A stretch of 64,000 nt of DNA, from positions 248,001 through 312,000 of the forward strand of contig OZ017757.1 in NCBI GenBank assembly GCA_963969365.1, in the 5' to 3' direction. Numbering within the stretch: position 1 is the first letter of the stretch; each line of letters starts with the position of its first letter. Shown here in pieces: positions 1 to 64,000 of the stretch. A model generated the notes under the pieces. It was given only the letters and a program-made list of their open reading frames with translations, was not told where the DNA came from and ran no database searches. This stretch comes from Asterochloris sp. CNOR1. Lineage: Eukaryota; Chlorophyta; Trebouxiophyceae; Trebouxiales; Trebouxiaceae. The position numbers and the translations under genes are program-made.

Positions 1-1566
1 TGTCCGCAGCACTGCTGGAGTGCAAGGCTTGGGAGGCTGTAGTCATAGCACCATGCAGCACCATGTCGACGCATGTGGTGTGTGCTGCACTGATTGGCTG
101 TGCCTTGCCTGGCAGCTGAAGGAGGCTCAGAAGGAATAGCAAGCTGATTGGGAGACGCAGCAAATGCATGATTGCAAGAGCTGGCCATTCCAACATCCCT
201 GGGCATGAGTGCTGCCCTGACATCACAAGGATCAAGGTCACACTCACCAAGAAGACCTTTGGAAAACACCATTTATGCGCCTGTCTGACAGGTGAATGCA
301 GGCTTGAATGCCCCAGCCAGCCAAAGGCAACCTCACCTGCTGTTGGAGATACTGCAGACGGCACTGACCATCAAAAGCGCCTGTCTCAGGCAGGCCCACG
401 TCCTTCTGCCACTCCTTGACCGCCTCAGCTGTGAGGGCGCCAAAAAACCCTGCACTGAAGGGGCCAGCACTCACTGTGCTGTACCAGATGCACATACAGG
501 TACTTCCTGCAGAGGTTGACAGACGGCTGTGGCAAAGGCCACAGCTGTGGGGCAGTCGGAGCAGAGGTTGAGTATGCTGTCAACCAGTTGGAAGGCAACA
601 TGGCTTTCCAAGCCTGTCACAGGGGTGGTCAGACCAGACAGCTTTCAGGGCAGACACAGTTCCAGTGCTCCAAGCCGCCAAGCCCAGTTCCAGCATGCCT
701 AGCAACCTGTGAGCCAGTCACCACAGCCGGCCAGATCATTGCCTCAACAGACATGTGCACCAGTCCCGTGTCCTGAGCAGCAGAGAGATCATGCAGATGT
801 GTCTCACCAGTTGCCATGCAGGATGATCAAGGAGGCAGAACGATAAAGAAACAGGAATCGGGTGCCCCGCATGGCAGCCAAAGCACTGCAGCAGCGCACC
901 TGTGTACCCATCTGGTGTCTCCTGCAGCTTGGTGATGTAGCCCTGACTGTGCAGAAAGCGCTGCAGCTCCACCACGCCGTCCCCTGCAGAGATCAGCAGC
1001 CCAGCATTGGTCACCTATGCTCAGTCTAAGTAAGAGTATAGTGACAAATGTAGCTCTGACTGTGCAGAACGCGCTGCATCCCCACCACGCCAGCTTTCCA
1101 AATGGGAGCGAGGTGTTCCTCTGGGAAGGGTGACATGCTCACTGTGCTTCCAGAGTAGCATGATGTGAGCAGAGACACTCCAGCTCAGCAGAGCAGGAGA
1201 CCCGACGGTGCACTTGGCAGCCACCCTTAAGAACCGTGTTCAGGCAGGGGTCCATGCAAGCAGCCGTCTGGTATTAAGCAACAAGATGGGGTTGAAGCAG
1301 ATGCACACACAAGGACCTGCTGTAGGCGTCCTGGTACATTGCAAGCTGCCAGAGTTGGCTGCGCACATAACAACACTGTATGACACCTGGGCTGCTACCG
1401 AAGCACTAAGCAGCTTAGAAGCCAGAATGCAGGCTGCCATGGACATGCATGGAGGGCAAATCTCACCATATGATCCCTCAGTTAGCGTCTGAGCCCCGAA
1501 GTTGTATGTGGGCACACCTGCCTGCTGCAGGGTGCGCTGACGAGCCCTGAAGTCGTGTGGGGAGAC
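1..1566 (-). CDS. Peptidoglycan-binding-domain protein, partial (3' end off window)
   Basis: Spliced on the minus strand from exons 1566-1467, 983-900, 449-369 and probably 284-248; phases agree (1, 1, 1, 2). Exons 983-900 plus 449-369 together encode a full PF01471-like peptidoglycan-binding helical unit: residues ELQRFLHSQGYI, then a GYTGFFG loop, AVKEWQKDVGL and the terminal TGAFD. This pattern (hydrophobic-Q-x-x-L, G-x-F-G, A-V-x-x-W/F-Q, G-L-x-x-T-G) is the family hallmark. In plants and algae such domains occur in plastid and secreted proteins; the partner domain here is outside the window, so function stays open. The donor at 1467 (TATG|GTGAGA) is strong. Exon 1566-1467 contains two similar halves, so the true acceptor could be the inner one near 1530. 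The N-terminal exon was not found; it probably lies between 1600 and 2090, divergent from COG8. Confidence 0.6.
1048..1100 (-). repeat. Decayed intronic copy of the adjacent PG-binding exon
   Basis: The stretch matches the exon around 943-980 (shared CTGACTGTGCAGAA and CACCACGCC blocks) with substitutions. It sits inside the intron directly before that exon, about 107 bp away. Confidence 0.6.
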
Positions 1567-2229
1567 CTGCAGATGCCCAGGCACTTATGAATACGACGAG
1601 GTGCCAGGCAGTCATAGCAGGATGCATTCGTCAACCGCAGCAGCCTGCCAGTTGACAGCATTGCATGACACCACAGCACCTGTGCTTGATGCGCACTGGC
1701 CTGCTATGTGAGATAAAGGCTGCAGTGGATACGCAGCATGTGGGGACTCACTGCTGTGCTTGCTGAACATGCATAGCGCCCGCCACGCAGATGCTGCTTG
1801 CCTGCAGCGGCCGATACCCAATGTCAGCGCTTGTGACAGCTAAGCACCTGGGGCACAGCATGGCATATGGGGACCTCACATCCTGCTCGTGGGAGAGCAG
1901 CTCTGAGGCGGTCAATGCTATGTCTTGAATTTGTTCTTAGAGACATGTTGTGGGCAGCAGTGGCTCTGAGCCCCCGCTTCATGTTGTTCTGATAGGCAGC
2001 TGCTTGTTTTGTTGTGGCAGAAGCGCTCTGGGTGCGCAGCTGGCCACGGTCAAGATCTGCAGCTCAAAAAGTATGATCCGATGAAGTACTGATGGCTAGG
2101 TGGCTTCGCAGCATTATTGCCATTGGCTGCAGGTCCTGTCAACAAGCCATCTCAAATCACATTTTGCCTTCTCTACTCGACTGCCCTGTTGCACATGAAC
2201 GCTTCTTGAGCGCAGCCGCGCCTCTCATC

Positions 2230-5200
2230 ATGCGGCCCACTGAGAATGGCAGCATGTCCCCGCGGCCATCTTCCAGCTCAACAATGCCGGGCCGGACCTC
2301 TCTCCCAACGAGACCTTCTGAGCCCAATGCCTCTGGCAGACTTGATCCGGCTGCGTCCCAGGAGCAAGAGGACACCTATTTCACAGAGCTCCTATCCTAC
2401 AGTGTGGATCGCCTTAGCAAGGAGCCAGAGCTCCTGAAAACTGATGCAGAGCACATCAGGCAGCAGATGCAGGCAGGTTATCAGGTTGCAGCCTCACAGA
2501 GCCCTGTTTCATGGTGCTGCCGGGGCATTTTGCCCCCATCAAGTGCTTGTCAGCTCTGATGGCTTTGTAAGGGTGGCCTCTGTACCTGCCTTCAGCATCG
2601 CCATGTAGCATTTGTTACAGGTCAAGTCCTCTTCAGATTAATATGCAGCGACGCTGGCACACGCTCTTCGTAAGTGTGTGAATTGTCAGCAGCCAAATCA
2701 CCAGCCTTTAGCAGCAATTGCTGCCAGAAATATCAGCTGAACTGCTCTTTGCACAAGACACCAGCTGAGCCACAACCAGACTGATGCTGCTGCCAGCCGT
2801 GTCCATGCGTTAACCCAAAGCCTCTCTGCATAAAACAAGCCGGTGTCGGGCCTGCTGCTTTATGCAGGCATGCACAAAGCATCTCTGCATGAACAGAAGA
2901 CCAGCATAGGACAATGTCAAGCCTTCCTGCCAGCGTCCACAACGCGTCAAGCTGCATGGAAGCCTGAAAGCAGCATGTTGTTGGCTGCAGGAAGCTGGCT
3001 CAGTCACTGTGGCCAGTGCCAGCACTTTGCAAGGCATGCAGGGAGTGAGAAGTGCTTTGCTGTAGGTGCAGGAGTTCAGTACGAGCCGCTGCATGGCCTT
3101 CATCAGCACAACTGCAAGCAGCCGCAGCTGCTTCTTGAGCGCCTGCACTCCATGCTTGACAAGAGTGGCTCAAGAGGAGTGCCTCTTTGCGTGCAGGGGG
3201 GCCGCGCTGAGCATGCAGCTCCTCCAAGCCAGAGCACCTTAAGCAGGCCATGAGCAGGGCATCTGTGGCCGGTGCGCTTCATCACAAGGCCTTCATGCCT
3301 GCCAGCCTTAACTGCAGGAGCTCCGCCACGCGCGATAAGGTCCTGACAGCGGAAGGGGGCCAGGACCACAATGGGGCTGGTGCTGCACGCATTGCAACAC
3401 TGGCAGGAAGTGAGACGTGCAGCCCTCTAGTTGCAGGAGGCAAGCAGGAGTTGTATATGAGCCTTCATCAGCACAGCTGTTGTTGGCTCAAGCAGGGCTC
3501 CCAATATGGCCTGCAGGGCGTGTGAAGTGTGCAGGTTAGGGGACGAATAGGCTCTGCACATCCTTGAGGCAACAGCACGGAAGTCAGGCAAAAAGGCAGT
3601 GCCTCTGTTTCATGCAGGAGGCCAGTGTCAGCCACTACCGGGCCTTCATCAGCACAGCAGCCTGCCTGGCTCGGCTCCAAGAGGAGACTCAGAATGTGGG
3701 GGACCATGTTGACGCAATGCTTCAGGCAATTCCGTCACTGGCAGCCGCCTGCGACACCTTCAGCAGAGATGCGCGGGGCCTGCTGGAGCGCAAGGCTGCC
3801 AACAAGCAGCTGCGAAGTATGCTCCTGCATCTGGTGTAACTGGTGTTTTGAAAGTGCCCAGATCGACTGCTGGTGGTGAAGATGCGCTTTGCATCAAGTG
3901 CATGGTTTGAGAGAGGATGCAAGAATCTCGTGCTGCAGCACAGCTGTGTTTGAGCTCTCCTAGCTGACAAGCGCATATGTGCGCACTCCCTACACAGCAC
4001 GGTTTTGCAGTCTGCCACCTGTCGACCTTCAGCCTCAGGTTCACTTTGGTGTAAGTTCACCTTGCAAGCTCATGTCTCCAGGCACCCACCCTGCCCTCTT
4101 GGAGCTCCTGGAGGTTCCCCAGCTGATGGATGCCTGCGTGCGCAACGGCAGCTACGATGACGCTCTAGACCTCAGGGCTTTCGTGCGCAAGCTTGCGGTC
4201 ATGCACGGCGACCTGGGCATGGCGCAGAGGCTGCTGGGGGAGGCCACAGCTGTGGCCGACACCATGCTGCGCCAGCTGCTGGCTAGGCTGAGGACTAACA
4301 TCCAGCTGCCCGAGTGTCTGCGGGTCATCGGGTTCCTGAGAAGATTGGAGGCCTTTCCTGAGCAGGTTGATGGGGTTCAGGGGGTTAGGGTTTAGGGTTT
4401 GTGCACGCATGACAGCTGCTCAGGCCGCTCCAAAACTCTGACTCATGTGCACTGCACCTGCTCTTTTAGGGTTCCCCTGTACACCCCAGATCACTTCGAC
4501 TGCCTGCTGCAGGCACTGCGCCTGCAATTCCTGCGCTGCCGCGAGGAGTGGCTGGGGGAGCTGATTGCGGAGCTGGACCCTGGCAGCGCCTACGAGTACC
4601 TCAAGCGCCTGACAGACGTGCATCGCCTGCACATGTTTGATGTCGTGATGCAGTTTCGAGCAATCTTCTCCGACGAGAGCGCTGGCCAGGTGTGGTTTCT
4701 GCACACGGTCGTGGTACCGCAGGCCGGCGCCCATCCTCTGGGCCCTTGTCAGACATATGCTGGCCACGTGACGGAGTTGCGACCCTGCCTATGATTGCTC
4801 CAACCACCCAATGGATGGGCAACGCCTGAACACTTTTCACGAGATCATGCACCTGCGGTCAACTGTCCATGAGGGAGCTGGTCAGATGGCTGCCAGCCAC
4901 TGCCAAGACGGGTGTCAAGAGCTGCGCCTGCCAAGCATTCTCAATGCCTGTACCGCTCTGCTCAGCACACAGAGAAGGCTTGGTTTGTGACTGGACCTTG
5001 CCATCTCCTGTCATTGTGCTCAACCTGCAGCCAACCTGCTTTGCTATTTAGAGGGGCCATGGAGGGGACGTGGACATCATGTGCATGTGGACACTGAGCC
5101 CAGCACTACCTGTGTCAGATGATGTGCAGGTCTGTACATATCCCCATCTTCAACAGTCTTTTTTTATGGGAGCCTGCATAGCTGTGCAGGAGGGCTAGGG

Positions 5201-8144
5201 GTGTGGCCTTCATGTACAGTTTGGCCCAGCACTGCCCCTGCCCGCATCTATGCTGGTCTATTGATGTAACCATCTTATATGTTCAGTTTGGTGGGAGCCT
5301 GCTTCACTGTGCAGGAGGGCTAGGCAGGGGCTGAGGGCATCACACACACCTGGGCACAGCGCTGCCTGTGCCAGGATCTGTGCTCGTCTGTTCATGTTTC
5401 CGACTCCAGTGTTGAGTTTGACGGGGCCTGCTCTGATGTGCAGGAGGGCCAGGGCTTTGGACATCATGTACAATTGGGCCCAGCACTGCCTTGGCCAGCT
5501 TCACTGTGCCGGCCTGTTCATATTTCCAACCCCAAGGCTCAGCTTGACGGGGCCTGCTCTGATGTGCAGGACGGCCAGGCAGGCGATGGGGGCCTAGTGT
5601 ACAGCTGGGCCCAGCACCGCCTGTGCCTCTACCTGGGGGAGCTGCGGCAGCACCTGCCGCGCATCAGCGAGGGGTGAGCCTGCCATGCCATCCAAATTTG
5701 AGCAGATCTCGTCTGTGCCGCCTGCTGCACTGGCCTGCTTGCTCCCGCCATGAGCATGCATTGACTGGTCCTGCAGCACATGCCCCCGCGAGCCGGGGCC
5801 TGCGCGCAATTTGCCATGTGCTTGATCTCAGAGCTGCCCGCTCTGAAGTTGTCAGCTGCTGAAATGTTCGTGCCAGTCAGCAAGCGGTGTGCGCATGACC
5901 TCATCATGGCATACATCTGCACAGAAGGTCTACTTTCTGCACCAAAATCTGCCCTGCTTCTGCCAGGGGTGCACCTCCACCACAAGAGTGCTTGCTGCAT
6001 TGTGTCGAACAGTGCTCATGGTGGGGCCTGCTGCCTATAATGCCCATCTGAATTTGACTGGCAGTGCATGGCTGCAGCAGAGGATTGCAGCACAGCAGCT
6101 CAGCGCAGAGCAGTGTTGTGCTGTGCTGACATGAAGTCAGACGGTCACCGGTGCATTGCGCCCACTGCATGTGGTCTGTGCTCCCACAGCACAAGGGTTT
6201 CTATCCTCTGTGGCTCTCCCCTTACCCCCTTCTTTTTCTACTTGCAGGGGCAGTCTGAGCAGCGTGCTGGAGCACTGCATGTACTGTGGAATGAGCCTGG
6301 CACGGGTGGGGCTGGACTTTCGGGGCCTCCTTCCCCCCGTGTTTGAGGCCTGCATCCTTGCCATGTTCAGCAAGGTGAACAGTGGCTGCACCTCGTGCAT
6401 GGTCTTTCAAGCCAAGACGGCTGGGGTGACTGCTTCCCCCTCCAATTCAGACCCTGGAAACCTTGCCATCTTCAGGACAGCAAGGGTCAGTGGAGGGCTG
6501 CGTGAGGACATGCTTTTGTGCATGGGCGCTTTGGCTGCTTCAGTGGATTGAGATTGCTCACCGCTTCATGTTAGAGGCCTGGACCCTGGCCATATTCAGC
6601 AAAATGATGGTGGGCTTTGTGGTCGGCTGCTGAGATGTGCTGAGGTTCTGGAGCATTTGCATCACCACTTGATCATGCGGGGCTCGTTACCTGGGCAATC
6701 TTAGCAGGATGAGTACTGGAATCTGCCCTGCGTGTCCCAAGAAACATGCCCTTTGAGCAGCTATTGAGCACCTCGTGTATCACATCCGCAGTTGGGCTGC
6801 CATCCACATCATGTACGTGTCCCACAAAAGTAGTACATGCCTGCTGCAGGCTGTGGGCACAGCAGTGGACGTTTTCGTGGCTGCGCTGGACACCCACAAG
6901 TGGGTCACCCTCGGCTCAGTCTCGGCCCGTGCCCGCAGAGGCAGCGGCGCCCTGGCAGAAGCAGGTGGGCATGAGAGCCGTGTGTCCTCGCTGCACCTTC
7001 AATGAAATCATGGTGCTGGGTGCAGCCGGCTGACAGGTGCCAGCAAGGCTGCTTGACAGGTGCCTGAACATGCAGGGGCTGCAGCAGGGGGCGCTGGCAG
7101 AGTCAGGTGATCATATGAGCCATGTGTACTGGCTTCACCTGTGGGCAAACATGCGGCTGGCTGGACCTGCTTGACTTGTGCCAGGGCAGGAACTTTTTGA
7201 TCATCAGCAGGATTCTGAGGGTAGCATGACTCGGGACAGCCTGGCACAGCCTCTGGTGGGTGCAGCTCTCTCCAGCAGGTCATTCTGGCAGCTTCGTGCG
7301 GGCAGGCTGGCTCTGCAGAGCGCCAGACACACCGATCACGCATCCCTCACTTGACTCGTCTCAGAGCACATTCTTTCACAGATGCATGCCGATCTGCAGA
7401 TGGCCGCAGTGCACAGGCGGGCGCAGAAGAGGGGCCCCCAACCGCCCTGATGGAGCATGCCCCCCTGGCCAGCTTTGCCAATGGAGTGCTTAGCACCTTC
7501 AATGAGCTGCGACATTGTGCACCTCTGACCCTGGCGCCCACAATCGCCAGCATCGTACAGGTGGGTGCCCCGCTGGGCGAGGCCTCATGCTCAATGCCAT
7601 CCGACGAGTCAGGCGCAGTCTGTGATCAAATGGTGTGCCTGTCATCTAGTCTTGCTGCCTGGAGTGTGCTGCTGGAGGCCTCTTACGCTTTGCAGTCAGT
7701 CAACCACACCCCAGATGTGCCACCAGCGTGCTGCAGGAGGCCCTCCTACGGATCTGCAGCGCTCTAGCGCACTACAGCTCCACAAGAGTTTTGGATGAGA
7801 CCGAGCAGAGCCTGGTGGTGGGCGCCTGTAAGATGGCAAAGACTGTGCTGTGCCCGTATCTGGCAGCCTGCTATCGTCGGCTATATGGGGCCGCAGCAGC
7901 CGCATCGCTGGATCTGGCTGCAGCCACACGGCCTCTGCAGGAAGTGCTGGAGCCTGCGGTGGAGCAGCAGGAGCCTCCTGCTGCACTGTCAGTCACGAAA
8001 TCCACGCCAGATCGGAAGGGCAGCCTTCAGCATACTCTTGCAAAGGATGCTGCTGCTGGTGACCACAACTCAGATGTTACACTTCAGCCAAGCTCACAGG
8101 CAGCTCCATCTCAAGATCATAAGATTCAGTCTTCACAACCTTGA
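2230..8144 (+). CDS. COG8: Conserved oligomeric Golgi complex subunit 8 (COG8/Dor1), complete
   Basis: Nine exons: 2230-2472, 3618-3816, 4082-4365, 4513-4689, 5570-5673, 6248-6374, 6850-6964, 7400-7560, 7737-8144; every phase agrees and the product is about 605 aa, close to plant COG8. COG8 is a lobe-B subunit of the COG tethering complex that guides retrograde vesicles to Golgi cisternae. Seen directly: the Dor1 N-terminus ([17 protein letters not shown], then [15 protein letters not shown]), the signature [34 protein letters not shown], and [14 protein letters not shown]. Intron 1 is GC-AG: the donor is CAG|GCAGGT at 2473, required to restore QMQEA. The start at 2230 gives a family-like N-terminus; an in-frame ATG at 2092 would add 46 residues. 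The C-terminal tail after about residue 520 is low-complexity. The stop lies 192 bp from the stop of the convergent lipase gene. Confidence 0.93.
4372..4400 (+). repeat. Telomere-like TTTAGGG motif in COG8 intron 3
   Basis: About six bases after the donor at 4366 the intron reads GGTTAGGGTTTAGGGTTT, that is two units of the plant/algal-type telomeric heptamer preceded by a related GGGGGTTAGGG stretch. It is an interstitial motif, not a chromosome end, because coding sequence continues on both sides. Confidence 0.6.
5172..5551 (+). repeat. Three degenerate tandem copies of COG8 exon 5 edge
   Basis: Units begin at 5172, 5297 and 5426, and the real acceptor-exon unit begins at 5552, so the period is 125-129 bp. 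Each holds GCCTGC....TGTGCAGGA followed by exon-like sequence (GGCCAGG, TGTACAG, GGGCCCAGCA). The youngest (5426) is nearest the exon and most similar. Confidence 0.85.
6446..6606 (+). repeat. Decayed copies of the 3' end of COG8 exon 6
   Basis: The exon end around 6345-6377 (GAGGCCTGCATCCTTGCCAT, then TTCAGCAAG) recurs at 6574-6606 with a few changes and more weakly at 6446-6480. The splice donor itself has decayed in both. Confidence 0.75.
7078..7142 (+). repeat. Decayed copy of COG8 exon 7 end plus donor
   Basis: The segment GGCGCTGGCAGA....CAGGTGATCATATGAGCC parallels the exon 7 end and intron start at 6948-7000 (GCGCCCTGGCAGAAGCAGGT, CATGAGAGCC). It lies in the intron immediately downstream. 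Confidence 0.7.
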
Positions 8145-13955: not shown

Positions 13956-14025
13956 GAAGCCCGCTTTGAAAGATCAGATAATCACATTGCTGTATCTTTC
14001 TCTCCTGCCGGGGAAATGTTCATGT

Positions 14026-19757: not shown

Positions 19758-19769
19758 GTTTTGAATGGG

Positions 19770-50700: not shown

Positions 50701-53700
50701 GCTGGTCATGGTGGGTGAGGCAGCCTGCCGAAACTGCTGGTTGGGGTGGGAAGCAGCTGCCTGTACAGCTGCTGGGGACAGTGTGCATGCCTGTGCTGCT
50801 CCACTCGCACTATGGCTGCTTGGGCGGCCCTGTTATGTTAGAAGCTGCTGTCTGTGGAGCTGCTGGGCACACTCCAGGCACAAGAGAGGGTAGCTTTGGG
50901 CTGCAGGCAACAAAGGGGGTAGAGGGGCTATCCCTGCGGACACTGGAGCTGCTGGCTCTGAGGGTGGCATTTGGACTGTAGCTTTAGATGGGATTCAGGC
51001 ACTTGCTCCTAAGGGCCCAGCACCCGCACATGTCTGTGTAATGCATCAGCACAGATCTGGGCAAACACATCTGTCGAGCTTCAGGCGGCTCCTCACTCTC
51101 AGTGGCTGCAGCGCATGAGGTACAAGGTGCAGGCCACAGAGCACAGATTCCAGCTTTAGGTGCACTTGTCAGTGGAATGCAGGCCCTCACGGTGGTTCTG
51201 GGCTGCAGGCAATGACAGGATAGAGGGGCTGTCGCTGGGGACGCGGCAGCTGCTGGCACTCAGGGTGGCGATTGAGGAGCTGGCAGGAGCTGAGGCCCTT
51301 GCCAAGCTGGTGCTCATCATCCACACCAGCGATGAGCAGGAGGCCGCGCTGCTGCAGGAGCTCAAGCTGAACAAGCTGCATGGGTGAGTGAGGCCAGGCT
51401 GGCAGCAGCAGGTACAAGTTGCACATATGGGTCACGTCACATGCACAGCAGCAGCAACGGATTCGCGAATGGCCTGCATCGCTAGCTTCTGAGGCTGTCA
51501 CATCTGACCCTGCCTGCAGGTTCCAGCGGGAGAATGTCATGATAGTCCCCCAGCAGCGGCGGGCAGGCTACTGCTACCGCACTGAGGGCCACTCCTTTGT
51601 GCGCCAGATAGACAGCGAGGAGCACCTGTGCGGCAGCGGGTATGCCATGATGCAGCTGGCCTGGCACCGCGAGGCCTTTACCCTGGGAGCCAATCTGACG
51701 ACGCGGGAGTTCCTGCCCGGAAGCGTGCTGGCAGCGCTGGAGTCCCGGGGTGTCCAGTGAGTGCTGCGGGTTGCGTCTGTGGGTGGCTGCTTTGCCTGGG
51801 AGCGTGCTGGCGGCGCTGGAGTCCCGGGGTGTCCAGTGAGTGCTGCGGGGTGCGTCTGTGGGTGGCTGCTTTGGGATGGGGTATCTCTGAGGAACTGGCA
51901 CCATGCACTGCAGCAGGGACAGGCAGGGCCCTGGTAGTGCAGGCTGCAATGCTTGCTATCTGCAGGTGGCTGTGCAGCAGACGGCCTTCTACTCTGACAC
52001 CCTGTGCTCACATGATCGATCATTCATTTCTGTCTGCAGGTGGCTGTGCAGCGGACGGTCCTCGGACCTGGGGCGCTGCAGCGTGGAGGGGGCCTTTGAG
52101 CTGGACTGCCTGGCCCACACGATGCGCCTGGCTGAGGAGCGTGGCTGCAACTGCAGCTTTGAGGTCAAGCTGGTAGACGGGCTGCCGGCGGCTCGCCAGC
52201 AAAACAGGTGGGCAGACACCTGCTCAGCCTGCTCTGCACTAATCTTAGGTCAGACAATGGGTTGTGCTGCCAAGGGGTGGGGACTGCGCAGAACATTGAA
52301 CTTGCAAACCCGCTGCAGCATAGCCTGCCACCTTAGAGGCAGGCGTCTACAGATGGGAGCCTCTGTGTGCTGAAGTTGTACTCCATTTGCTGGTAAAACA
52401 TTGACTGCTGGCGATTGTCTCCAGCTGCTTGATATACTTCAAAGGCCCCGTCAGGATGCTGCCAACTTCCAAAACGCCCTTAGCCTGCAGAAGCCTCTGT
52501 GCTCACATCATGCTGTTGGCCAGTCCTTCTGGCAGCTATGCAGCCTTTGGGCACAACAAAGCTGCCTGCTTATGGCTACCACCCTGCATGCCAGTGTTGA
52601 CTGCATTGCTGCACTCTGGGCTGCCTAAACATCTGCGTCTCCACTCTACGATGTGGCTGCCTGCTGCTTCCATGCTGCCTGCCTGGGGCTGATCATTTGT
52701 GGCTGCGCGTCTGCAGTTTGGTGCTGTCGCAGAAGGGTGATGTCAGGGGCCGCAAGACGGAGAAGGACACCGCCAAGTTTGGAATGGACCTGAAACATTG
52801 TGACCTTCAGGTGAGTAGCTGCGGCATACCAGCTGTGCAGGGCTCTACATGATGGCAACAAATGGTTACATTGACAAGCAGGGCAGGACGCTCCTTGTAA
52901 AGTCTGCTGCCAGCAAGCTGCTTGAACACAGCGCAGTGCAACAACTTGCTCCTGGGATTTGGTGCCTGCTCTGGCCGCTGTCAGCACATCACCTGCTGCT
53001 GCAGGCCCAGAAGCTGCCATCGCTGGGCTTGCAGCCCAGAGTGTGGTGCTTCTTGGGGCAACCCCACGAGCACATTGAAGTGAGCTGCCATCCAGATCTC
53101 ATCCAAATCCCACCCTGTTCCACCCTGCAGTCCCACAAGTTGGCAGGGCATCTCAGCGAGCTGACGCGGGGGATGAAGGGGCAGCTGCTGGTCAACACCG
53201 ACCGCTACTGCTTCCACCTGGAGACCCTGGCCAAGCTGCTGCGCAAGGGGCACACGGTGAGAGTGGACTGCGTGGGTACCAAGATGTGGCTGACCTGGAG
53301 CCTGGTTCAGGGCCAACCACCAGGACATGCCCATTTGGAGGGCTGCTGGGTCAGCAAGTGGCATCAGGTGGGCTGCTGGCATGTCTCCAGGCAGTGCCCA
53401 TCTCCCAGGCACTGACTGATGAACCGGAGGTAGAAATTCGAATGGATAGGTAAAAGGTTCGACTCAAATGAGCATGTCAGCTAAGTGCGGACACCCTGTC
53501 CAAGCTTGTATAGGGAGAACCTGGCGAGGTTTGAGGGCAGGGGGACTGTCCCCACGCCTGCCAGCGCACTCTCAAGGCCACTTGCTCTCTCCCAGGCCAG
53601 CGTGCAGAGTGTCGTACATGGTGTGCTGGGACACGAGGTGCAAGCTTCATGTGTTGTCTGATGGGCAATGTCATGGCCAGTTTGTGGGTCACAGGTGGCG

Positions 53701-56700
53701 GCTTGCCTGCTCCTCCATGCACCAGGCAGGTAACAGTCCTGCCTTGATGGTGAACAGCGCCCTGCAGTTTGTATTTATGTGGACAGACTGCAGGCCCAAG
53801 CAACCAGGTTGACAGCAGGCCGCCGTCAGCCTGCCAGATGGACCATGACGTACATGCCTGGGCAGCACCTGCCTGACCTGGCTCACGCGCCCTGATGCAA
53901 GCTATCTGGTCCCAGTGGCAAGCCTGCAATCAGCAGGGTAGTGCTTCAGGTTCACGGCCACCAGCACATACTGTTGTTGGAGGAGCGCAGCGGGGTGTCG
54001 GGGGCAGCCCGCCAGGTCAGTGGCTGGTGGGCACTGCACCAGAAGACATCCTTTCTGCAGGCAGCAAACCTTTTGCATCTGAGTGGCTGCCTGACCAGGC
54101 TGTCCCCACCCTGCTGCAGTCCTTCAGGCCGGACGTGGACCTGCACCAGCACCACGCCTTTGTATCATTCCACATGGCTGACCTGACCACCATGCCAGAG
54201 GTGTATGCTGCGCCGCTCGTCAGCAAAGTGCCTCTGCAGACGCTGAGAACGCACAAGGTGCGCTGGAGTGCCTTCTGTAGGACACTACCTTGCTGCTTCG
54301 GCTGCTTGCCAGGGGCCTTGCTGCAGCTGATGGGCATGAACCTGCTGCTGAGCTGGGGCCAACGCTGTGATGCGGAGTCATGAAAGACTGGACTGGAGAT
54401 GTGGGCAGGAGGTTCACATTGAAGGGTATGCTCTGCTGCACTGTCCCTGGGTCAGCGAGAGCTTCCCAGCAAACGCTGCGCACACACGAGGTGCGCTAGG
54501 GGGCCTTCCAGAGGACATCAGCCTGCTACGCTGGACCAGTGTTTGTTGTTGGTCCTGCTGTTGCCAATATGAAGCCAGCGTCAACATTGTGTTCCACACT
54601 ACGCTGCAGCAATTTGAGGACATCGTCCCGCACTTGGTCAAGCAGGACCGCAGCCCAACCTTTCGGGCAGCTGTGGCCCGCATGAAAGCCAGCAGCGGTG
54701 CAGGAAGCAGCCCCAGCCAGACGGGGCCAACAGCCAATAAGGTGGGTGCGAGAATGCGCCGCTCATGTGAGGACAGACATTGCGCCGGCCGAGCATGCCA
54801 TATCTGCCATCTCTGCGCAGTTGGGCAATGGATCAGCCCAGAATGTAGTGCAAGAACGCGCCGCCCATGTGGGGACAAACCTTGTGCTGGCTGAGAGTGC
54901 CATTTCTGTCATCAGTGCGCAGTCAGACAGGGAGCAGCCAAGAGGATTGCTGTGAGACTGGCATGGCAACTGGACCCAAAGCCCTGGCCTGGCTGGGCAC
55001 ACTTTCTCGGGCCATCAGCACTCAGCCAGGAAAAAGGCAATCACCACTGTGGTGGCTTTCTGGTGCCATCATGCTTTGGCACCATGCAATCCTGCCCCCT
55101 GCATGGCTGGTGCATCGTTGTTGCTGTGACTGATACCTGGTGCAGCATAGGCCTTTCAGTGTAATGGTAACACTCAGGCAGCCTTCAGTCTGCTGCCCGC
55201 AGAGATTGTGCACCCTGGTGGCCCCAGCCTCCTGCCTGCAATCCGCTGCCGGCAGGTTACATTGAGTCTCCAATGAACAACCTGCAACCCTACTGCCTGC
55301 AGGGCCTGTGCCATCTGGGTGCTGTGGTTGGCAGTAGTCCAATGTGGACGGTTTGCAAGGCTGCTCAGGCAGCCTCAAAAGTCTGACCTGCACCCCACTG
55401 CTGGCACCTCCGATGTCTGACCTGCACCCTGCTGCTGGCAAATCTCAGGCATCTTGGCGTTCAGATGGACCTCTTGCTTGCAGGGCATGATTCGACTTTC
55501 CAATGTCTCACCTGACTACAGCTTTCATCTGCAGGGCCTGTGCATTGTAGTGTTCGTGGCCGACAACGAGGCCAGCAACCACGCCGCCAGCCTGGCGCGC
55601 TCCTTGGTGCATCCGGCGCGGGACTCGGTGCACATTGCCACCAGCATCGCAGCTGACAGCGGATTTGCAGACGCCCAGCGCCTGCTGACCCGCCACACGG
55701 AGCAGTTTGAGCTCAGCACACGGATGAAGACTGATGTGCTGGTGTGGTGGCGCACATGATTGTACACACTCACTGCATTTGTTAGGCTTTTTGGCGAGTT
55801 TCTGTGGGGGGTTGGGGTTGATGGGGCAGCTTGGCTTTGCCCAAGACGTGTCTCTCATGCTTCCCCAATCTTGATTGCAAAGCGGTCCACAAGCCAGGCT
55901 TGTACAATGCACATGCCTGGGTTGGTGGGCGATGTGGTTGCGTGTGCCCTGCTTGCATGGCTCTCAATGCTGCTTTTGTCAACATTGTGCAACGCAACGC
56001 TGCCAGCGCCTCAGCTCATGGAAGCATGGTGGATCCACGTGCTTGAAATGGATTGTCTCCATACAGTCCCCTGCAGCAGAATTTTCTGCAGACATCCTCG
56101 CCCGCAAGCCCCTCCCTCCCAGCAGGTGGTTGGCCAGACAGTTGCTGCTTCACTCCCCCAACATCACTCTGCTACACTTCCCTGCTCTGCCAGCAATACT
56201 TTCTGTCACATTAGTTCAAGCCCCGCTGCACTGTTATTGCGTTGTTCTGCAGGTGCGGGGCACTCAGGCCCTGGTGGACTGCCTTCTGGAGCACGCCAGT
56301 GGCCTGCAAGCAGACCTGATTGTGATGGGGAGCCACCAGATCAGTAAGCCTGACTCGGCACTGATTGGAAGCGTGGCGCTGAGCCTGCTGAAGAAATGTG
56401 AGCGGTGAGTGGCAGCACAGGGCAGACCTGCATAACAAACTATCATCACCAGATCTGGCACCTTCTCAGTGCCAGTTCCCTCCAAGAGTGCTGCAAAGTC
56501 AAATAATCTTCCCCTGCACCTTCTGACTTGTCCACCATCTGAACCCCCTCTCAGCACCTTGCCGTGACAGGAGAGCACCTTCTCAGCACTTCCGTTGCTA
56601 CCAGATGGTGTATCACTTTTGGTCTGACTCAGGGCGGCTCTCGAGCTGCAGATGATGGTCATGCGCTTTTCAAATTCAGGCCGAATCTCTGCTGCCATGC

Positions 56701-58012
56701 AAACACAGCGCCACTGCCAACCCTTCCAGCTTCATGCTCAACATATTCAGCAGTGTGCCATCTTGATCAACTGCTGAATTGACTGATTGATGGTTACCCC
56801 TGTGGTTTTTGGCTACCTCCTCTCTGCAGGACCTAGACACTTCATCTGCAGGCCCCTTGACACTGCCAAACTCTCCAGCTTTGTGCACGTGGGGGACAGC
56901 ATGCTACCGTGCACATCATCTTGGCAGGCAGTGTTTGCCTGCCTGCCATTGAGAAGGGCCCAGTGCCTTCTGTGCAGGCCCATGGTGATTGCCAGACCCT
57001 CCAGCTTTGTGCCCAAGGGGGACAGCGGTGTGCGGGCCATGCTGGTGGTGGAGCACACTGCCCGTCCTCTGCTCAACTGGATGGTCTCCCGCCTGGTGGA
57101 CACTGTGAGGGGAGACAAGCTCTTTCTGGCTCGCGCCAATGCCAAAGATTCAGCTGCCCAGGTTAGGCACATCTTCTTCTCCTGTTCATGAGCTCTTTCT
57201 GTCATTGAGGGGAAGCAAGGGCTGACCAGCTTCCAGCATTTGTTGCCAATACCAGGGCTCAGCTACCCAGCCAGGGCGCAGCTACCCGGCCAGGGCAGAA
57301 GCAGCTGTGACTGTTACAGCAGCTTGCTGGCAGCGTGCGAGGGCAATCAACGAGAAATGATTGTATCTACTGGTGGCCATGGCCAACAGCCTGGGATGTG
57401 CGTTGCGCGTCACTCACACTGCGAATGTTTGCACCAAGCCCATGCGGCAACTGCTTCTTTGTGCAAGCTTCTCTTGGACAGGAACTCCCTATCTCGCATC
57501 AATACCAGCTGCTGCAGTTTGCAGAGCCCTGTAGGGCAAAACTACCCTTCTTTCAGGTTCCCATCTGCCAAGTTTGCTGCCTGCAGGACACCATGACCAC
57601 GCGGCAGCTGCTGGACCAGTTTGCAGAGGTGGCGGGTGCCAAGCGCGTGGCTACGGTGAAACGGGCCCTGGTCGGCAGCAACGTCACTGAGGCTTATGTC
57701 AGCGCAGCAGAGATGGACAGGGTGCACCTGCTGGCTGTTCAGGTGACTTTGAGAAAGCATCAAGTGGTGCATCTGCTGTCAGCAGGCAAAACGACTCTAC
57801 TTGTCACCATCTTAGGAAACCTTATCTGCGTGCATGTCGTGTGGGAAAAACGACAGGTTGGTGAGGCTACACATCCCTCTTTGCATTTGAGCAAACTCAG
57901 CACTGAAGCTGGGAGACACCCCTCCTGGCGCACATGCAAGCCCTGTAGCACACTCCAGCCTGCTGAGTGCAAGCAGGTGGTCTCAGATCTGACAAGCGGC
58001 CCCAAAAAATGA
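44732..58012 (+). CDS. Large protein: nucleotidyltransferase-like core plus two USP domains
   Basis: Exons supported by phase: 47320-47434, 47661-47795, 48119-48460, 49423-49560, 50446-50625, 51209-51383, 51520-51756, 52040-52207, 52717-52810, 53131-53256, 53596-53637, 54120-54257, 54575-54741 (phase of its 5' edge unresolved), 55535-55741, 56253-56404, 56978-57161, 57587-57742. Probable first exons are 44732-44857 and 45530 to about 45690; a further exon may lie at 53937-54015. The region from LKLLGGEQFEHYKRQVLELL through LALRVAIEELAGAEALAKLV, IIHTSDEQEAALLQELKLNK and GSGYAMMQLAW resembles UDP-sugar pyrophosphorylase-type folds, but the N-terminal glycine-rich nucleotide loop was not seen. 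USP-type segments follow: VVFVADNEASNHAASLARSL with DLIVMGSHQISKPDSALIGS, then AMLVVEHTARPLLNWMVSRL. The second USP domain lacks its C-terminal GS-rich part; the frame runs on from 57742 to a stop at 58012. It could be two genes. Confidence 0.6.
45045..45475 (+). repeat. Two copies of the exon at 45530
   Basis: CTGCAGGAGCAACGCCGCCT at 45047 and TGCTGCAGGAGCGTCACTGG at 45402 match the real acceptor and exon (CTGCAGGAGCGCCGTCGGCA at 45524), with downstream TCGCAGGG.CTG and GGC.TT.GGCAGCC landmarks. Confidence 0.8.
48990..49042 (+). repeat. Decayed copy of the start of exon 49423-49560
   Basis: GTGCCCAGCAGATGCTGGGTATGCCCATCCG-type sequence (GCCCAGCAGATGCTG core) repeats the exon stretch AAGGCCCAGCAGATGCTGCG about 430 bp upstream. 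Confidence 0.65.
49700..49925 (+). repeat. Two copies of the 3' end of exon 49423-49560
   Basis: The exon end (GTGGAGTGGGAGGCACCCTT, CACCTTTGAT, TCCTCAAACTGCTGG) recurs at 49708-49760 (CTGGAGTGGGAGCAACCCTT, CACCTATGAT) and 49876-49921 (CTCTTCACCTTTGACGATAT, TTTCCTAAACTGCTATG). Confidence 0.85.
50190..50405 (+). repeat. Two copies of the start of exon 50446-50625
   Basis: GACGGCGAGCAATTCGAGCA at 50330 and GCATTGTGAGCACGGCGACC near 50224 mirror the real GGCGGCGAGCAGTTTGAGCA at 50447. Each is followed by related sequence and a GAGGCAGCC tail shared among the copies; period about 110-125 bp. Confidence 0.85.
50903..50985 (+). repeat. Copy of the start of exon 51209-51383
   Basis: CTGCAGGCAACAAAGGGGGT then AGAGGGGCTATCCCTGCGGA and CTGCTGGCTCTGAGGGTGGC parallel the real acceptor and exon start at 51203-51270. 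The distance is about 300 bp. Confidence 0.88.
51723..51873 (+). repeat. 79-bp near-perfect tandem duplication of an exon end and its donor
   Basis: Copy one (51723-51801) spans the last 34 bases of exon 51520-51756, its CA|GTGAGT donor and intron start; copy two begins at 51802 with only a few differences over about 72 bases. Using the second donor would add a stop (GVQ then TGA), so only the first works in frame. Confidence 0.95.
51960..52015 (+). repeat. Copy of the start of exon 52040-52207
   Basis: CTGCAGGTGGCTGTGCAGCA then GACGGCC at 51961 duplicates CTGCAGGTGGCTGTGCAGCG then GACGGTC at 52034. The period is about 73 bp. Confidence 0.9.
54468..54930 (+). repeat. Copies near exons 54120-54257 and 54575-54741
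   Basis: An exon-end copy with donor lies at 54472-54512 (CAAACGCTGCGCACACACGA then GGTGCGCTAGG beside the real CAGACGCTGAGAACGCACAA then GGTGCGCTGG). A roughly 100-bp tandem pair begins near 54742 and 54845 (GAGAATGCGCCGCTCATGTG beside AAGAACGCGCCGCCCATGTG). Confidence 0.8.
56840..56910 (+). repeat. Copy of the start of exon 56978-57161
   Basis: CTGCAGGCCCCTTGACACTG then CTCTCCAGCTTTGTGCACGT repeats TGTGCAGGCCCATGGTGATT then CCTCCAGCTTTGTGCCCAAG. The following GGGGGACAGC is identical. Distance about 125 bp. Confidence 0.88.
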
Positions 58013-59178: not shown

Positions 59179-60033
59179 GCAAGTTTGAGCACGAGGCCAT
59201 CCCCAACACCAGCAGATTGGCTCCGCACCTGCAGCAGGAGTGGGACCCTGCAGCTAATGCCCACCTGGGCAGCATCACCATCACTCCCCAAAGTTGGAGA
59301 AAGGTGTGGTGGAGCAGCGGCATGTGCAAGACCGGGCAGCCGCACAGGTGGCAGGCAACCATCAAAAACCGCTCCAATGGCAGGAACTGCCCCTACGATG
59401 CTGGCAGAGCAGCCTGCCCCTGCAATGATCTGGCCCACAACCACCCAGAGGTGGCAGCAGAGTAGGACTGGGAGGCCAATGGGGAAAGGACACCAGAAAC
59501 TGTGACGGCAAGCAGCCACTTCAAAGCAGCCTGGAGGTGTGGCCTCTGTGGGCACAGCTGGACTGCCGTTGTGCTTAGCAGAACACATGGGACTGGATGT
59601 CCCCAGTGTGCCCGTGAGGCCCGCCGCATCCAGACAAGGCAGCCCAGCATCAGCAGTGGAGCACCACACCTGCTGGCCGAGTGGGACTGGGAGCCCAATG
59701 AGACACATGGCTGGCACCCAGACAATGTCACCCTGGGCTCAGTCAAGAAGGTGCACTGGGTCATGCAAGACGAGTGCAAGTTGGGCCTGGTGCACAGATG
59801 GCAAGCAGCACCAGATTCGCGTGCTTACTATGATCATGGCTCCCCTTACCCCGTGCTCAGAGGCAGCAGATCTTTGGAACTTTCGGGTGAATGGAGAATT
59901 GACACCCAGTGAATGTTGCAGTACAGTCGAGCAAAGTCGTGGCCTGGAAAGGGCCAAGTGGCAGCCAGTGGCACCAGAGGGTTGATCAAGTTGTCAACAC
60001 TGTCAGAAGACATGAAGTGAAAAGGGCCAGATA
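59179..60033 (+). pseudogene. DUF4379-type zinc-ribbon gene, copy 5 (nonsense, deletion, frameshifts)
   Basis: The core starts after a TTTGTAG acceptor. It shows the usual repeats (AACPCNDLAHNHPEVAAE, AAWRCGLCGHSW, GCPQCAREARRIQTRQPSIS, HLLAEWDWEPNETHGWHPDN). The codon after EVAAE is TAG at 59463-59465 where copies 2 and 3 have TGG. Around 59850 about 45 bases including the AVCACNSLAVQ cysteines are lost, and further small shifts follow. It is unlinked from copies 1-4 by about 29 kb. Confidence 0.85.
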
Positions 60034-60395
60034 GCTTCAGTACTGTGGTTCCTATCCTGTATGCTAGCAGGTCCTTTCAAGTGTCGTTCTGGCCAGGGTG
60101 AGCGTCGCATCCCACTTTGTGTGCATTGAGACATCTACGCCTACAGGATGTCAGTGCATGCTTTTGATGGGCAGCTCCTATCGATCTACAAGTCTGCATA
60201 CCGCAACTGGGAGAGTGGTCCTTCTGACGGCTGTGGCCATGTTGCTTACAGTCATGGCAGAAGATGCTACCTCTGAGGGTCTAAGGTATTGGCCACGCAA
60301 TCACGGATCTTTGACATGCGTTACAGCTGTCTCTGACATGCGTGACAAGTATTCTGACTTCATTACCTCTCAAACAAAGCAAATGAGGCATGTTA

Positions 60396-63300
60396 TCATG
60401 CCCTTCTGACAGGTGGTAGACTCTTGGGGACTTCAGGGGTGTGAGGCAGGAAGCTGGGGCTGCCAGGCATGGCCGCCTGCAAACAGTGCAGCAAACCCTT
60501 TGAGCACAGCTTGCCCGTGCACGTGCTGGCAAAAACCCGTGCTCAGGTTGGCAGGCCACGTGTGATGCGCCCACCAAATGTTTGCCCACCACTGTGTGCC
60601 AGCCTGATATCTCTTTCCACGTGGACAGTGCATGCTGCCATGTGCCTAAGCAGTCCTAGCTCGCACTAGTGCTTATCGTCTACAAACAGCTCTAGAAAGT
60701 CCCAAAGGCCTACCATGCTTATCAGGACCATAGAAAACAAGCAACAAGCTCACCATCTCAGCCGGTTTGCGGGGCTTGGAGGGGCCGCAGATCAGCGCAA
60801 TGGTCCTCAGTATGTGACCCTCCACGCCCTCAGCCGAGGCGAGGCCCTCAGCACTGTCCACAGAAGCCGGGCCCTGCCCATCCCTGGGGGTCAGAAACAG
60901 AGCTGCGTCGCCGGCTGGGGCCAACACTGAGTGAGCGCGCAGCTCGTCCTGCAAGAGAGCAGGCAAGTAACGTATCAGGGCAGGGTGTGGCTAGACCGAA
61001 GAGCAGGCGGGTCCGGCGCCATCAGTTTGGGCACATGGCTCAGTCTGTGGGAGGGCAAGCAACCCTTGTACCAGGGCGGTAAGACCTGCCACAAGGTAAA
61101 GGGCACCATTCACCGAGCACCAAACCTCCTCCTTCGGGGGGGGATTCAATCTGGACAAAATACTGAGCACCTGTGCATTGTTCAGCTGACGGCCACCTTG
61201 CCTGCAGGTGCCAGTGCTGAGTGTGTGCACGATACCCACCAAAGTGAGTTAAGAAGTTGGCCGGCAACGACCTTACAACCGAAAGGTGAAGGGGCACAGA
61301 TCAAGCCCCAGAAAAGAGCTAAACACCTGCTGCACCAAGCCTGCCTCCATCAAAGCACTGGTCAGAGTCAGTCTCAGTGGTCCTTGTCTCATGCGACAGC
61401 TTGTCCTGCACCAGTGTGTGCATGCATGCAGCGCTGCCACTCACTGTCTCAGCAGCTTCACTGCTGCCCGCAAAGACTTGACTCACCAGGTCAAAGTCCT
61501 GTGCGTCCACATCTGACAGGTGGCGCCCATGGTGGGAGCCTGAGCCCGGATTGGAGGCCGTGGCCGCCAGGGAGGGGGGCTGCAGCTGATCCACAGCCTC
61601 ACGGGCGCTCAGGTCAGCCAGGTTGGTCTGCACATGCACCGGCAGCCCCAGGCGGATTGCCAGGTACCTGCAGCCAGCGCTGTCGCTTTTGTAGTACGGC
61701 TCAGCGCTGCGAACTATACATCTAGCCACTCTAGTGCTCAGGTCAGCCAAATTGGTCTGCAAGGGGGTGGACAGGCCCGTTTGACTGCCAAGTACCTGCG
61801 CCACACTAGGGATTCTGCTGAGGGATGATTCTGTATCTGATTTTCGGATGCCCCAGGTGCTCTGTTTCCTGCCTATCGCTAGGAAGCAGTCGGAGCAGTG
61901 ACTGGGCTCACAACGATCTGCCTCAGATGATAAGCAGGCCTCAGCAAACAGCGGCATCGCTGAGCCCCTGGCATAGATAGACAGCTCCAGTGGCACATCC
62001 CCAGCATGCAAGCGGCCTGCCTCGGCCTGACATGTGCTACCAGCCCTACCTGATGGCCTGGTCCAGCGTGAAGCGCTCCCTGAGGAGCAGGGTGCACTCC
62101 TTGCGCAGCCCCTCCAGCTCCTGCTTCTGCCGCTGGTGGTACTGGATCTTCTGCCTGCACACACGGAAAGTCATGGCTGGCTGGATGCAGGCTCTGACAA
62201 CAGAAACTGGCTGTCCTGCCACCTCAAGCACTGGACAACATCCTGCCTCTGCCAGTGGTGGGGAATTGATGGGCTGAGCAATATGCGGTGCTTCATGAGC
62301 ATGGCTCATGAGACATTGCATTCCAGTCAGCATGCAGTCCCAGCAACGCTTGTCGTCTGCTGCCCTGCAGACGTGGATTTTGGCCTGTTTGCGCATCAGT
62401 GACTGCTTACACTGCCTGCAGCCTGGGGCATCCACTGATCATACCCTCATCCGCCCGGCCGCGCCCCTGCACTACAGACATCCCCCAAAACAGACCTACC
62501 TGGGGTTTGCATGCCCCAGCGTGCTGGTCTGCACCAGCGCCTCCATGTCGCGCTGATAGTGCTCCATCTGGGACCGCAGCAGCACGTTCTCGGCTGCCAG
62601 ACGTGTGACCTCGCCACTCAGCAGCAGGTTCAGCTTCTCCCCTGCAGAAAAAGCCACGCAACAGCACACTTTAAGTTGTGCAGAGCAACAGCCCACGCAG
62701 TAGCACAGTGGAAGTTGTGCAGAGCCACAGCTTTGCCTCCGTTGCCGCAGTGGGTGGAGCACGAGGGCACTGCGAAGTTCGGTGTGACAGTGCTGCTGCA
62801 AGCCCTATGAAAAGCGGCAGGGTTTGTAGCTGCAGCTTGCTGTGAGCAAGGAGGGCCTGGCGCAAAAAGGCCCAGAAAAAGAGGGGTTGGCAATGCTTCA
62901 GGGCTGGCTGTCTGCAGAGAGGCCTGACAGCAAAGCTGAACAGGGGTTCTACAACTGCAGGGCGGTGCACTGTAGGCAGCATCAGGCGACATGATTGTCA
63001 GGTGCAGCAGCCTGCTGAAAGCAGATCAATCACAAGCTGCAGTGCCCCCAGGCAGGCGCACCCTACAGGCTGCTCAAGCACCGCAGCTGGCCAGCAAGCG
63101 CAGGAGTACACCCCTCAGGCTCAGCCCTGATCACTGTGAAACAGAGCCCTGTACCTTGAGCATCCGCCAGTAGTCCGTCATGCCGTGGGGGCATCTCCTG
63201 CAGGCTGCTCAGGCGCTGCAGCTGACGGTTGACGTCCCAGCTGCTGCTCTCATCCCGGGCGGCCTGCAGCTCTGCTGCCAGGTCGGCGTTCCGGTCTGAC

Positions 63301-64000
63301 AGGTGAGCCACCTCCAGCTGCTGGGCTTCCAACTCATCCTGCAGGCAGCAGCCCAAACCATTCACTGCTGTGTCAGCTCCTCTGCAAGTAATACCCTACA
63401 GCAACCATGAGAAACAGCTGCTTGACAGCCAGGCTATCATCTAGCTCCCCCCTAGCTGCTGAGCTTCCAGCTCGCAGCAGCAGGGCCAGAAAAGCCTCCA
63501 GGCAGGGCACATGCGGGACTCCATGAGGTGCTGGCAGAGGGCCCAGCCTGCAGGCAACAGCAGCAGACTGTGGCAGCCTCCTGCATCCACAGCTGGCAGC
63601 CATGCTGCTGGGCCCAATCCCTGTGGCAACAGCAGCTGTGGCGCGCGCCTGCAGTGGCCCGGCACCCCAAGTGCTGCGGCGACGTCAGGCCACTGGACTG
63701 CCTGACCTCACAAAGTCAGCCACACAAAGTGCCTAAGGGGGCTGGCCCATTAAAAGATGGCCCTGTGCCCCAGGCCTGCAGGGCCAACTACATCAGGCTG
63801 CAGAAGACAGCAGCCCCACCAAATGCAGCTGACAGCCCACCTGATGGGGGACCCTTGACCTGCAGGGCTGCCTGCATTGGGCAGCAGCAAGACAAGCACC
63901 AGGCGTGGCTGAGAACCCACCTGACGGGCCTGCACCTCGTGCTGGGCAGCCTGCAGCTGCATCTGCGCCTGTCTGATCTGGGCTTCAAGGCGCTCCTGTG
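60396..64000 (-). CDS. Coiled-coil protein of unknown function, 3' part (5' end off window)
   Basis: Exons on the minus strand: from beyond 64000 to 63921, then 63338-63155, 62641-62500, 62154-62050, 61667-61487, 60948-60754, 60476-60396; phases agree (0, 1, 2, 2, 0, 0). The visible part is about 290 aa. Strong heptad-type helix runs through EAQIRQAQMQLQAAQHEVQA, EVAHLSDRNADLAAELQAAR, VTRLAAENVLLRSQMEHYQR and QELEGLRKECTLLLRERFTL. A compact segment follows (YLAIRLGLPVHVQTNLADLS, then DVDAQDFDL), and the tail is Ser/Pro-rich, ending SLPPVRRA. I do not recognise the family; a scaffold, motor-adaptor or ciliary role are all possible. It is convergent with zinc-ribbon pseudogene copy 5, whose end lies about 360 bp away. 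Confidence 0.75.
61735..61805 (-). repeat. Copy of the start of exon 61667-61487
   Basis: On the minus strand GGTACTTGGCAGTCAAACGG then CAGACCAATTTGGCTGACCT repeats GGTACCTGGCAATCCGCCTG then CAGACCAACCTGGCTGACCT. The distance is about 130 bp upstream of the exon. Confidence 0.88.
62655..62735 (-). repeat. Tandem pair in coiled-coil gene intron
   Basis: Two units of about 33-38 bp with the shared landmarks CACGCA.(C/T)AGCACA and AAGTTGTGCAGAGC.ACAGC lie directly upstream of exon 62641-62500; part of a third unit follows toward 62735. Confidence 0.7.
63428..63482 (-). repeat. Copy of the start of exon 63338-63155
   Basis: On the minus strand CGAGCTGGAAGCTCAGCAGC repeats the exon start GATGAGTTGGAAGCCCAGCA about 130 bp upstream of the real acceptor. 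Confidence 0.75.

Follow-up and report, generated by a model that had tools for sequence, protein, structure and literature searches.

Why do introns hold worn copies of the exon edges that border them? The question is raised by a 64,000-nucleotide stretch from the green alga Asterochloris sp. CNOR1 (contig OZ017757.1, positions 248,001 to 312,000; hereafter, the window), in which a preliminary description, made from the letters, had noted degenerate direct repeats of either the acceptor and exon start or the exon end and donor in the introns of almost every gene. We looked for such copies in the window and in other parts of the genome. The copies are real, but their extent had been overstated. 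They are probably the fossils of ordinary small tandem duplications that fell roughly at random, in which case the prominence of exon edges would be an effect of survival and detection.

Introns carry copies of their own exon edges

The sample of 314 kb comprised the window and 25 other stretches of 10 kb (L009-L027 and L029-L034), 26 stretches in total, which make up 0.6% of the 56.38-Mb genome (21 contigs) and call for caution in conclusions about age. A smaller set of 254 kb served for the tests on exon letters only, random placement and intron birth. A census of repeat pairs that used no gene models covered the first 60 kb of the window and 20 other 10-kb stretches, including L028, a virus-like stretch of low guanine-plus-cytosine (GC) content that was excluded from the gene models and from every count made on the 254-kb and 314-kb sets. 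A published account of the lichen alga Asterochloris glomerata describes a genome of 56 Mb with a GC content of 56-62% over 98% of its length and 9 introns per gene (PMC6652019). On the 314 kb, a self-trained gene finder yielded 119 genes with 701 exons, and its consensus was CAG/GTGAGC for donors and CTGCAG/G for acceptors (slashes mark the splice junction).

Each edge query consisted of 40 bp of intron and up to 100 bp of exon and was aligned to its own intron, with a score of at least 32 taken as positive; edges were included if the exon score was ≥8, the exon ≥30 bp, the intron ≥80 bp and the target ≥40 bp. Own-intron matches were found for 35/440 acceptor edges and 33/432 donor edges, compared with 9/4400 and 5/4320 for edges from other genes aligned to the same introns, an enrichment of about 39-fold and 66-fold, respectively. 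The reverse-complemented own intron gave 0/440 and 2/432 matches, the shuffled own intron 1/1320 and 2/1296, and other introns within the same gene 26/7074. When the splice consensus was trimmed and exon letters only were used, 19/342 acceptor and 16/342 donor edges still matched, compared with 2/1710 and 3/1710 in the control. The comparison proposed in the preliminary description, own introns against other and shuffled introns, therefore came out in its favor: direct degenerate copies of an intron's own exon edge occur above the other-gene, reverse-complement and shuffled controls.

The repeats were also evident from the DNA without reference to genes. With a cut-off of ≥28 bits, self-BLAST of the window detected 41 direct pairs separated by less than 500 bp, and none in each of three dinucleotide-shuffled copies. 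For inverted matches less than 200 bp apart, the window had 8, compared with 2-6 for the shuffled copies; removal of palindromes left one of the eight. In the census, with short hairpins removed, 123 direct pairs were detected within 1 kb versus 5 inverted pairs; 58 of the direct pairs had a spacing of 60-139 bp, and at least one direct pair was present in 16 of the 20 stretches outside the window (none in L009, L010, L022 and L028). A looser cut-off on the 314 kb gave 176 direct and 16 inverted pairs, from which chance pairs may account for about a tenth of the total. Simple-sequence repeats were considered as the source and rejected, Tandem Repeats Finder (TRF) giving just 13 rows in the window.

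Overall, 63/491 introns bore a copy. The window was denser than average (23/99 introns; 27/166 edges, versus 41/706 in the other stretches), in line with the more than fifteen introns counted there before, and edge-copy density varied among the 26 stretches (P = 7e-5). The share of introns with an edge copy ranged from 0/21 in L010 to 7/15 in L026. "Almost every gene" was too strong, given that a match was present in 8 of the 17 window models having tested edges and in 30 of the 52 models having at least six edges. Copies were most often 60-150 bp apart, but their distances, in 20-bp bins, extended from 20-39 bp to as far as 540-559 bp, which does not bear out the reported spacing of 70-130 bp as a general rule. 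Twenty-one edges had more than one copy, and in 12 of them the closest copy was the best (ties counted in favor; about nine expected by chance, a hand estimate), which is non-significant, and the impression that the nearest copy is the most similar did not extend beyond examples such as the COG8 array described below.

Cases in the window

The cases catalogued in the window were as follows.

935..1091, minus strand: exon start 935-978 of the PG_binding_1 gene, with a copy at 1048-1091 (91% over 44 bp)
5071..5627, plus strand: COG8 (Dor1) gene, acceptor plus exon start repeated as an array; intron 4690-5569 (880 bp)
6340..6609, plus strand: COG8 exon end 6340-6373, with a copy at 6569-6602
6941..7184, plus strand: COG8 exon end plus donor 6941-6998, with a copy at 7084-7140
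12714..12990, minus strand: acceptor-side exon edge 12724-12832, whose copy at 12888-12990 lies in the intron upstream (79% over 121 bp by self-BLAST)
17202..17513, minus strand: acceptor plus exon start of the WD40 gene (CCCTGCAG/GTCCAGAT...), present three times about 110-123 bp apart
32747..32944, plus strand: acceptor plus exon start, with a copy 135-136 bp upstream
50138..50471, plus strand: donor-side and acceptor-side copies in one 243-bp intron (50203-50445), at offsets of 114-119 bp
51714..51873, plus strand: exon end plus donor, head-to-tail, 79-bp unit, 95% identical
51953..52062, plus strand: acceptor plus exon start, with a copy 74 bp upstream (91% over 32 bp)
54219..54517, plus strand: exon end plus donor 54219-54284, with a copy at 54451-54517
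54731..54943, plus strand: exon end plus donor, with a copy at an offset of 103 bp (76% over 112 bp)
56840..57026, plus strand: acceptor plus exon start 56967-57026, with a copy at 56840-56900, in a model with a universal stress protein (Usp) domain
61607..61803, minus strand: acceptor plus exon start 61607-61676, with a copy at 61736-61803

The COG8 array comprises five acceptor regions at intervals of about 127 bp. Upstream of the real acceptor, its copies lie at distances of approximately 126, 256, 380 and 510 bp and score 83, 66, 47 and 31, so that nearer copies are more similar. In the WD40 array, neighboring predicted acceptors are in-register duplicates of one another, and the duplication at 51714..51873 is the youngest case in the window among units above 60 bp. 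The COG8 array, the WD40 array and the region 50138-50471 were searched against the whole genome and all three matched their own place only, although diverged copies could escape such a search. A mobile element or introner was rejected as the source, with cross-gene edge matches at background (9/4400 and 5/4320) and the three arrays confined to single places.

At 6544-6609 in COG8, the gene finder inserts an exon of 22 residues that resembles a decayed copy of the preceding exon end. This exon call is probably false, and automatic annotation of this genome may be led astray by fossils of this kind. A 27-bp inverted repeat (50262-50288 and 50376-50402, 96%) lies within the tandem-copy region 50138-50471; just one further inverted pair less than 3 kb apart was listed for the window, 49293-49365 with 51078-51150.

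Copy-bearing introns are longer, and the copies decay

Introns with a copy had a median length of 498 bp (n = 63), compared with 244 bp for those without (score <28, n = 411; the 17/491 introns with a best score of 28 to <32 were omitted). The surplus of about 250 bp corresponds to about two units. Matches per 10 kb of intron were 1.8 in introns below 300 bp, 2.6 at 300-400 bp, about 7 at 400-700 bp, and 4.6 above 700 bp. The earlier proposal that introns grow by repeated local duplication is thereby supported: each copy lies near its source in direct orientation and matches the exon of its own intron, and the introns that bear copies are longer. Local direct duplication has thus probably lengthened introns, the link with length being a correlation.

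The copies decay like non-coding DNA. Of 35 acceptor copies, 26 had at least five aligned codons; among these, 10 were frameshifted and 1 contained a stop, and the codon changes comprised 33 synonymous and 86 others. The copies had been said to contain stops or shifts, and it is the shifts that are borne out (10/26), stops being rare (1/26). Tandem duplication of whole coding exons with an open frame did not describe these acceptor copies, given the same 10/26 frameshifts, and an array in L021 (see below) may be an exception.

Acceptor-side copies crossed the junction by at least 8 bp on both sides in 35/55 cases. In junction-spanning copies, the AG was kept in 65/70 and the GT in 37/42, compared with 0.76-0.80 in the flanks. 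This elevated identity arises partly because the junction-spanning filter itself selects for conserved junctions. It could also be read as selection keeping the copies, say because they offer alternative splice sites or act as decoys or regulatory repeats, and the shortage of young copies (see below) would suit that reading. We consider it extremely improbable: besides the effect of the filter, the codon changes look neutral, 10/26 copies are frameshifted, and the identities around acceptors equal a neutral calibration given in the next section.

Random placement or targeting of splice junctions

To what extent do the copies favor splice junctions? The 155 pairs in the 254-kb set were compared with random placement, and the counts of exon-intron (58 observed, 53.2 expected), intron-intron (61 and 52.6) and exon-exon (24 and 21.7) pairs were all near expectation. 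Overlapping pairs formed 124 families, of which 81 involved a junction, 36 were noncoding and 7 exonic.

We then simulated decay after random placement, with exon sites evolving at 0.3 times the neutral rate and no constraint on the spare copy. Among detected events, the junction-to-noncoding ratio was 0.88 at a divergence (K, substitutions per site) of 0.30, 1.73 at 0.45, and 4.98 at 0.60, at which point 0.40 of the junction pairs and only 0.06 of the intron-only pairs were still detected. Under this slow-exon model, the observed family ratio of 81:36 points to K near 0.5, with the observed family classes defined not exactly as the simulated ones. Anchored at the acceptor and taken over 30 bp in each direction, identity was 0.631 for intron and 0.712 for exon (25/41 edges usable), very similar to the calibration at K = 0.5 (0.632 and 0.715; random pairs, 0.526 and 0.572), and the exon side was the better one in 16/25 edges.

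The alternative is a process that targets junctions and duplicates exon-intron borders preferentially, perhaps through breaks at R-loops or in the splice-site DNA of transcribed genes. It would account directly for the own-edge enrichment of about 39-fold and 66-fold, the excess of junction families (81:36) and of junction-spanning pairs (below), and the small difference between exon and intron sides in donor copies. However, random duplications at K of 0.45-0.60 with slowly evolving exons give a similar excess, the acceptor identities on either side of the junction fit an age of K = 0.5, and the exon-intron, intron-intron and exon-exon counts lie near random placement. A junction-specific process, as implied by the preliminary description, is thus not needed, with donors fitting less well than acceptors, and we regard it as unlikely. 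The identities around the junction agree in part with the age that slow exon decay requires.

Several observations weigh against random placement followed by slow exon decay. Junction-spanning pairs numbered 73 versus 45.1 expected (z 5.2), pairs with both copies spanning a junction 20 versus 8.0 (z 4.8), and intergenic pairs were scarcer than expected (5 versus 11.3, z -1.9). With fewer indels, the simulated ratio was just 0.74 at K = 0.30 and 0.95 at K = 0.40; the exon rate of 0.3, the indel rate and the unit sizes are all assumed parameters of the fit. Observed alignments had a median of 37 bp and 36% reached 50 bp, compared with 68-75% in simulations at K 0.45-0.60. Donor identities were 0.683 for intron and 0.718 for exon (20/40 edges; K of about 0.4 and 0.5), with the exon side better in just 9/20. 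The acceptor AG was retained in 65/70 cases, versus about 0.8 around it, and some pairs do not form a simple tandem unit, such as 935-978/1048-1091, with dissimilar flanks around its 91% core. Finally, the gene models are self-trained predictions from DNA alone, in which a copy is sometimes called an exon.

Weighing these points, we still hold it probable that the copies are remnants of ordinary, roughly random small tandem duplications seen through a filter of survival and detection. Such duplications, mostly 60-150 bp apart, would land roughly at random on the genome. One wholly within an exon would usually be lost by breaking the protein, and one inside an intron would survive, with both copies fading fast. 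A duplication straddling a junction would survive if splicing keeps to the outer copy, and its exon half, held by selection on the protein, would keep the pair recognizable for longer. Surviving events would lengthen the intron, repeats of the event would build arrays, and most visible events would be old, with a pair divergence of about 0.5 substitutions per site.

Age of the duplications

Young families (≥85% identity over an alignment of ≥40 bp, junction or noncoding) numbered 8, versus 28.5 expected from a constant rate scaled on pairs below 80% identity (P = 6e-6). A constant-rate fit to all classes expected 8.1 young families, but misfitted the older classes, with 2.7 and 2.7 expected and 14 and 14 seen in the main junction bins. 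A non-negative least squares fit of ages was unstable across bins, and the young-family count alone was used. Noncoding pairs of at least 50 bp were all (16/16) at 70-85% identity. Among units of 10-29 bp, 28/74 TRF rows were at ≥90% and many arrays were young, though TRF favors similar copies. Substitutions showed an ordinary spectrum (transition/transversion ratio 1.12), and repeat-induced mutation was rejected as an explanation for the scarcity of young copies.

A steady process, with or without loss, predicts at least as many young as old duplications per unit time, and the rate for units of ≥60 bp would therefore have fallen. Confidence in this is tempered by the small sample, by alignments shorter than the simulated ones and by the possible tenth of chance pairs. 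The fit to a constant rate suggests that there was probably an older wave of duplication that has since slowed, for units of this size. A more specific scenario, which we offer tentatively and do not favor outright, is a past episode with no steady trickle, in which tandem duplications of about 100 bp across the genome lengthened many introns and then mostly ceased; the exon halves could then act as a clock that dates the episode from one genome.

Molecular route

In keeping with small local tandem duplication, pairs were direct and close (123 versus 5), and the three arrays searched were non-dispersed (3/3 at a single place). The three youngest duplications have units of 69, 79 and 102 bp, are head-to-tail with the unit equal to the spacing, and align over 71, 81 and 104 bp, respectively. 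The 2 bp of extra matching in each points to break repair with fill-in of staggered ends, which would be the most likely route, a lead that comes from these three cases. Related small tandem duplications are reported from plants, in experiments with paired nicks and among naturally occurring insertions in rice. Slippage at Okazaki-fragment flaps, with which yeast RAD27 mutants are associated, may be an alternative route. Among 100 pairs, 12 tile the whole unit and many others only a core. Whole-unit extension was 4.0 versus 2.6 for random on the right and 3.6 versus 1.3 on the left, under permissive scoring that extends by chance.

Intron birth

Could the same duplications create introns? Rogers in 1989, and Gao and Lynch in 2009, are said to have advanced a tandem genomic duplication model of intron gain, and the preliminary description had suggested that a duplicated segment carrying AG/GT might become a new intron. 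This was not seen: none of 292 introns had donor and acceptor flanks in register at a score of ≥30, and in-register flank identity in six ranges across 353 introns was never above control (z -1.91 to 0.86). Out-of-register flank similarity at the same score was found in 6/292 introns, control 0/1460.

Neighboring acceptors that are mutual in-register copies were found in 11/478 pairs (control, 2/2350), and neighboring donors in 4/478 (control, 1/2345). Two acceptor pairs from the window serve as examples.

17352-17381 with 17054-17258, window: acceptor pair
34111-34149 with 34291-34398, window: acceptor pair

The acceptor pairs are located in L012, L014, L016, L021 and the window; the spacing is a multiple of three in 8/11, and some may be coding repeats. 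A single array in L021 (6699-7260) accounts for three of the 11. It consists of tandem units of 102-105 bp, of which two share 94% identity, and the gene finder reads the units as short exons separated by introns of 42-49 bp. This array could instead be a coding repeat.

It is conceivable that introns are being created here, either from a duplicated AG/GT stretch as in the Rogers model or from a duplicated acceptor region that becomes a new small exon and intron, as described for the potato RdRp gene. The excess of in-register neighbor pairs on both sides (11/478 and 4/478) and the spacings in multiples of three would favor it. The first form is countered by 0/292 introns in register and by the absence of any range exceeding control past z 0.86. 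As to the second, the upstream exons of 10 of the 11 acceptor pairs scored ≤15 and may be gene-finder mistakes, in addition to the three pairs that come from the single L021 array. We therefore judge ongoing intron creation very unlikely.

Other features of the window and the sample

Eight proteins or protein parts from the window were compared with Pfam; four were above the family cut-off (Dor1/COG8 at 277 bits, WD40, PG_binding_1 and Usp), and of the other four, one had a lipase class 3 match under the cut-off and three had no match. The gene model 44003-58141 probably represents several fused genes. No match was found for the COG8 query in PDB, for positions 1-8000 of the window in a plasmid search, or for the window in tRNA and Rfam scans.

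The window also contains gene copies of DUF4379 (treble-clef zinc finger) at 18576-19757, 20784-21787, 24002-24961, 29403-30374 and about 59179-59912. Pfam confirms the two tested copies, and the other three were judged from translations. A genome search gave at least 45 matches including the query, 40 among these on contigs 12, 1 and 17; the matches listed, query aside, were 67-80% identical. By these sequence matches, DUF4379 is an expanded family.

The excluded stretch L028 (contig C13, 500001-510000) has a GC content of 0.523 and a frame of 817 amino acids at 3264-5717 with predicted Prim-Pol, D5_N and DUF5906 domains, and it contained no direct repeat pair within 1 kb. A low-GC region derived from a virus has been reported for Asterochloris (PMC6652019), and L028 may resemble it.

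Significance and comparison with known systems

Intron lengthening without transposons is, in our judgement, poorly measured. Exon edges act as preserved reference copies, by which old small duplications stay readable after those confined to introns have faded, and this offers a way to count and date old duplications from a single genome. Two warnings follow as well: exon copies beside splice sites can mimic a splice-site-specific mechanism though they may be a survival effect, and gene finders can call fossil copies exons.

Our search of the open-licence literature found no report of this pattern for any trebouxiophyte genome, and the available portions of the Coccomyxa genome paper (PMC3446292) and of the Asterochloris paper (PMC6652019) do not mention it. 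Introners, which are similar sequences in introns of unrelated genes and have been reported in green algae among others (PMC9860276), likewise affect introns on a large scale; here, in contrast, exon-edge matches to the introns of other genes were at background and the three arrays were single-place, in a comparison of edges rather than of whole introns. The tandem genomic duplication model (PMC3443670) involves internal gene duplications of a similar kind, but its in-register flank signature was present in 0/292 introns here.

In the potato RdRp gene, comparison of species revealed a recent tandem duplication over an intron-exon border that made a new intron (PMC4974935). The likeness lies in the local duplication of the 3' end of an intron with the 5' part of the next exon, acceptor included; the difference is that the present genome holds dozens of mostly old cases, with intron gain at the level of candidates only. 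A parallel in mechanism may be the small tandem duplications that arise from repair of staggered breaks with complementary ends in mouse and human cells (PMC8355091). Those are experimental results in mammalian cells, whereas ours are read from sequence alone, with distances mostly of 60-150 bp. Both kinds of duplication are direct and head-to-tail, measure tens of bp upward, and, in the three youngest cases here, involve little microhomology.

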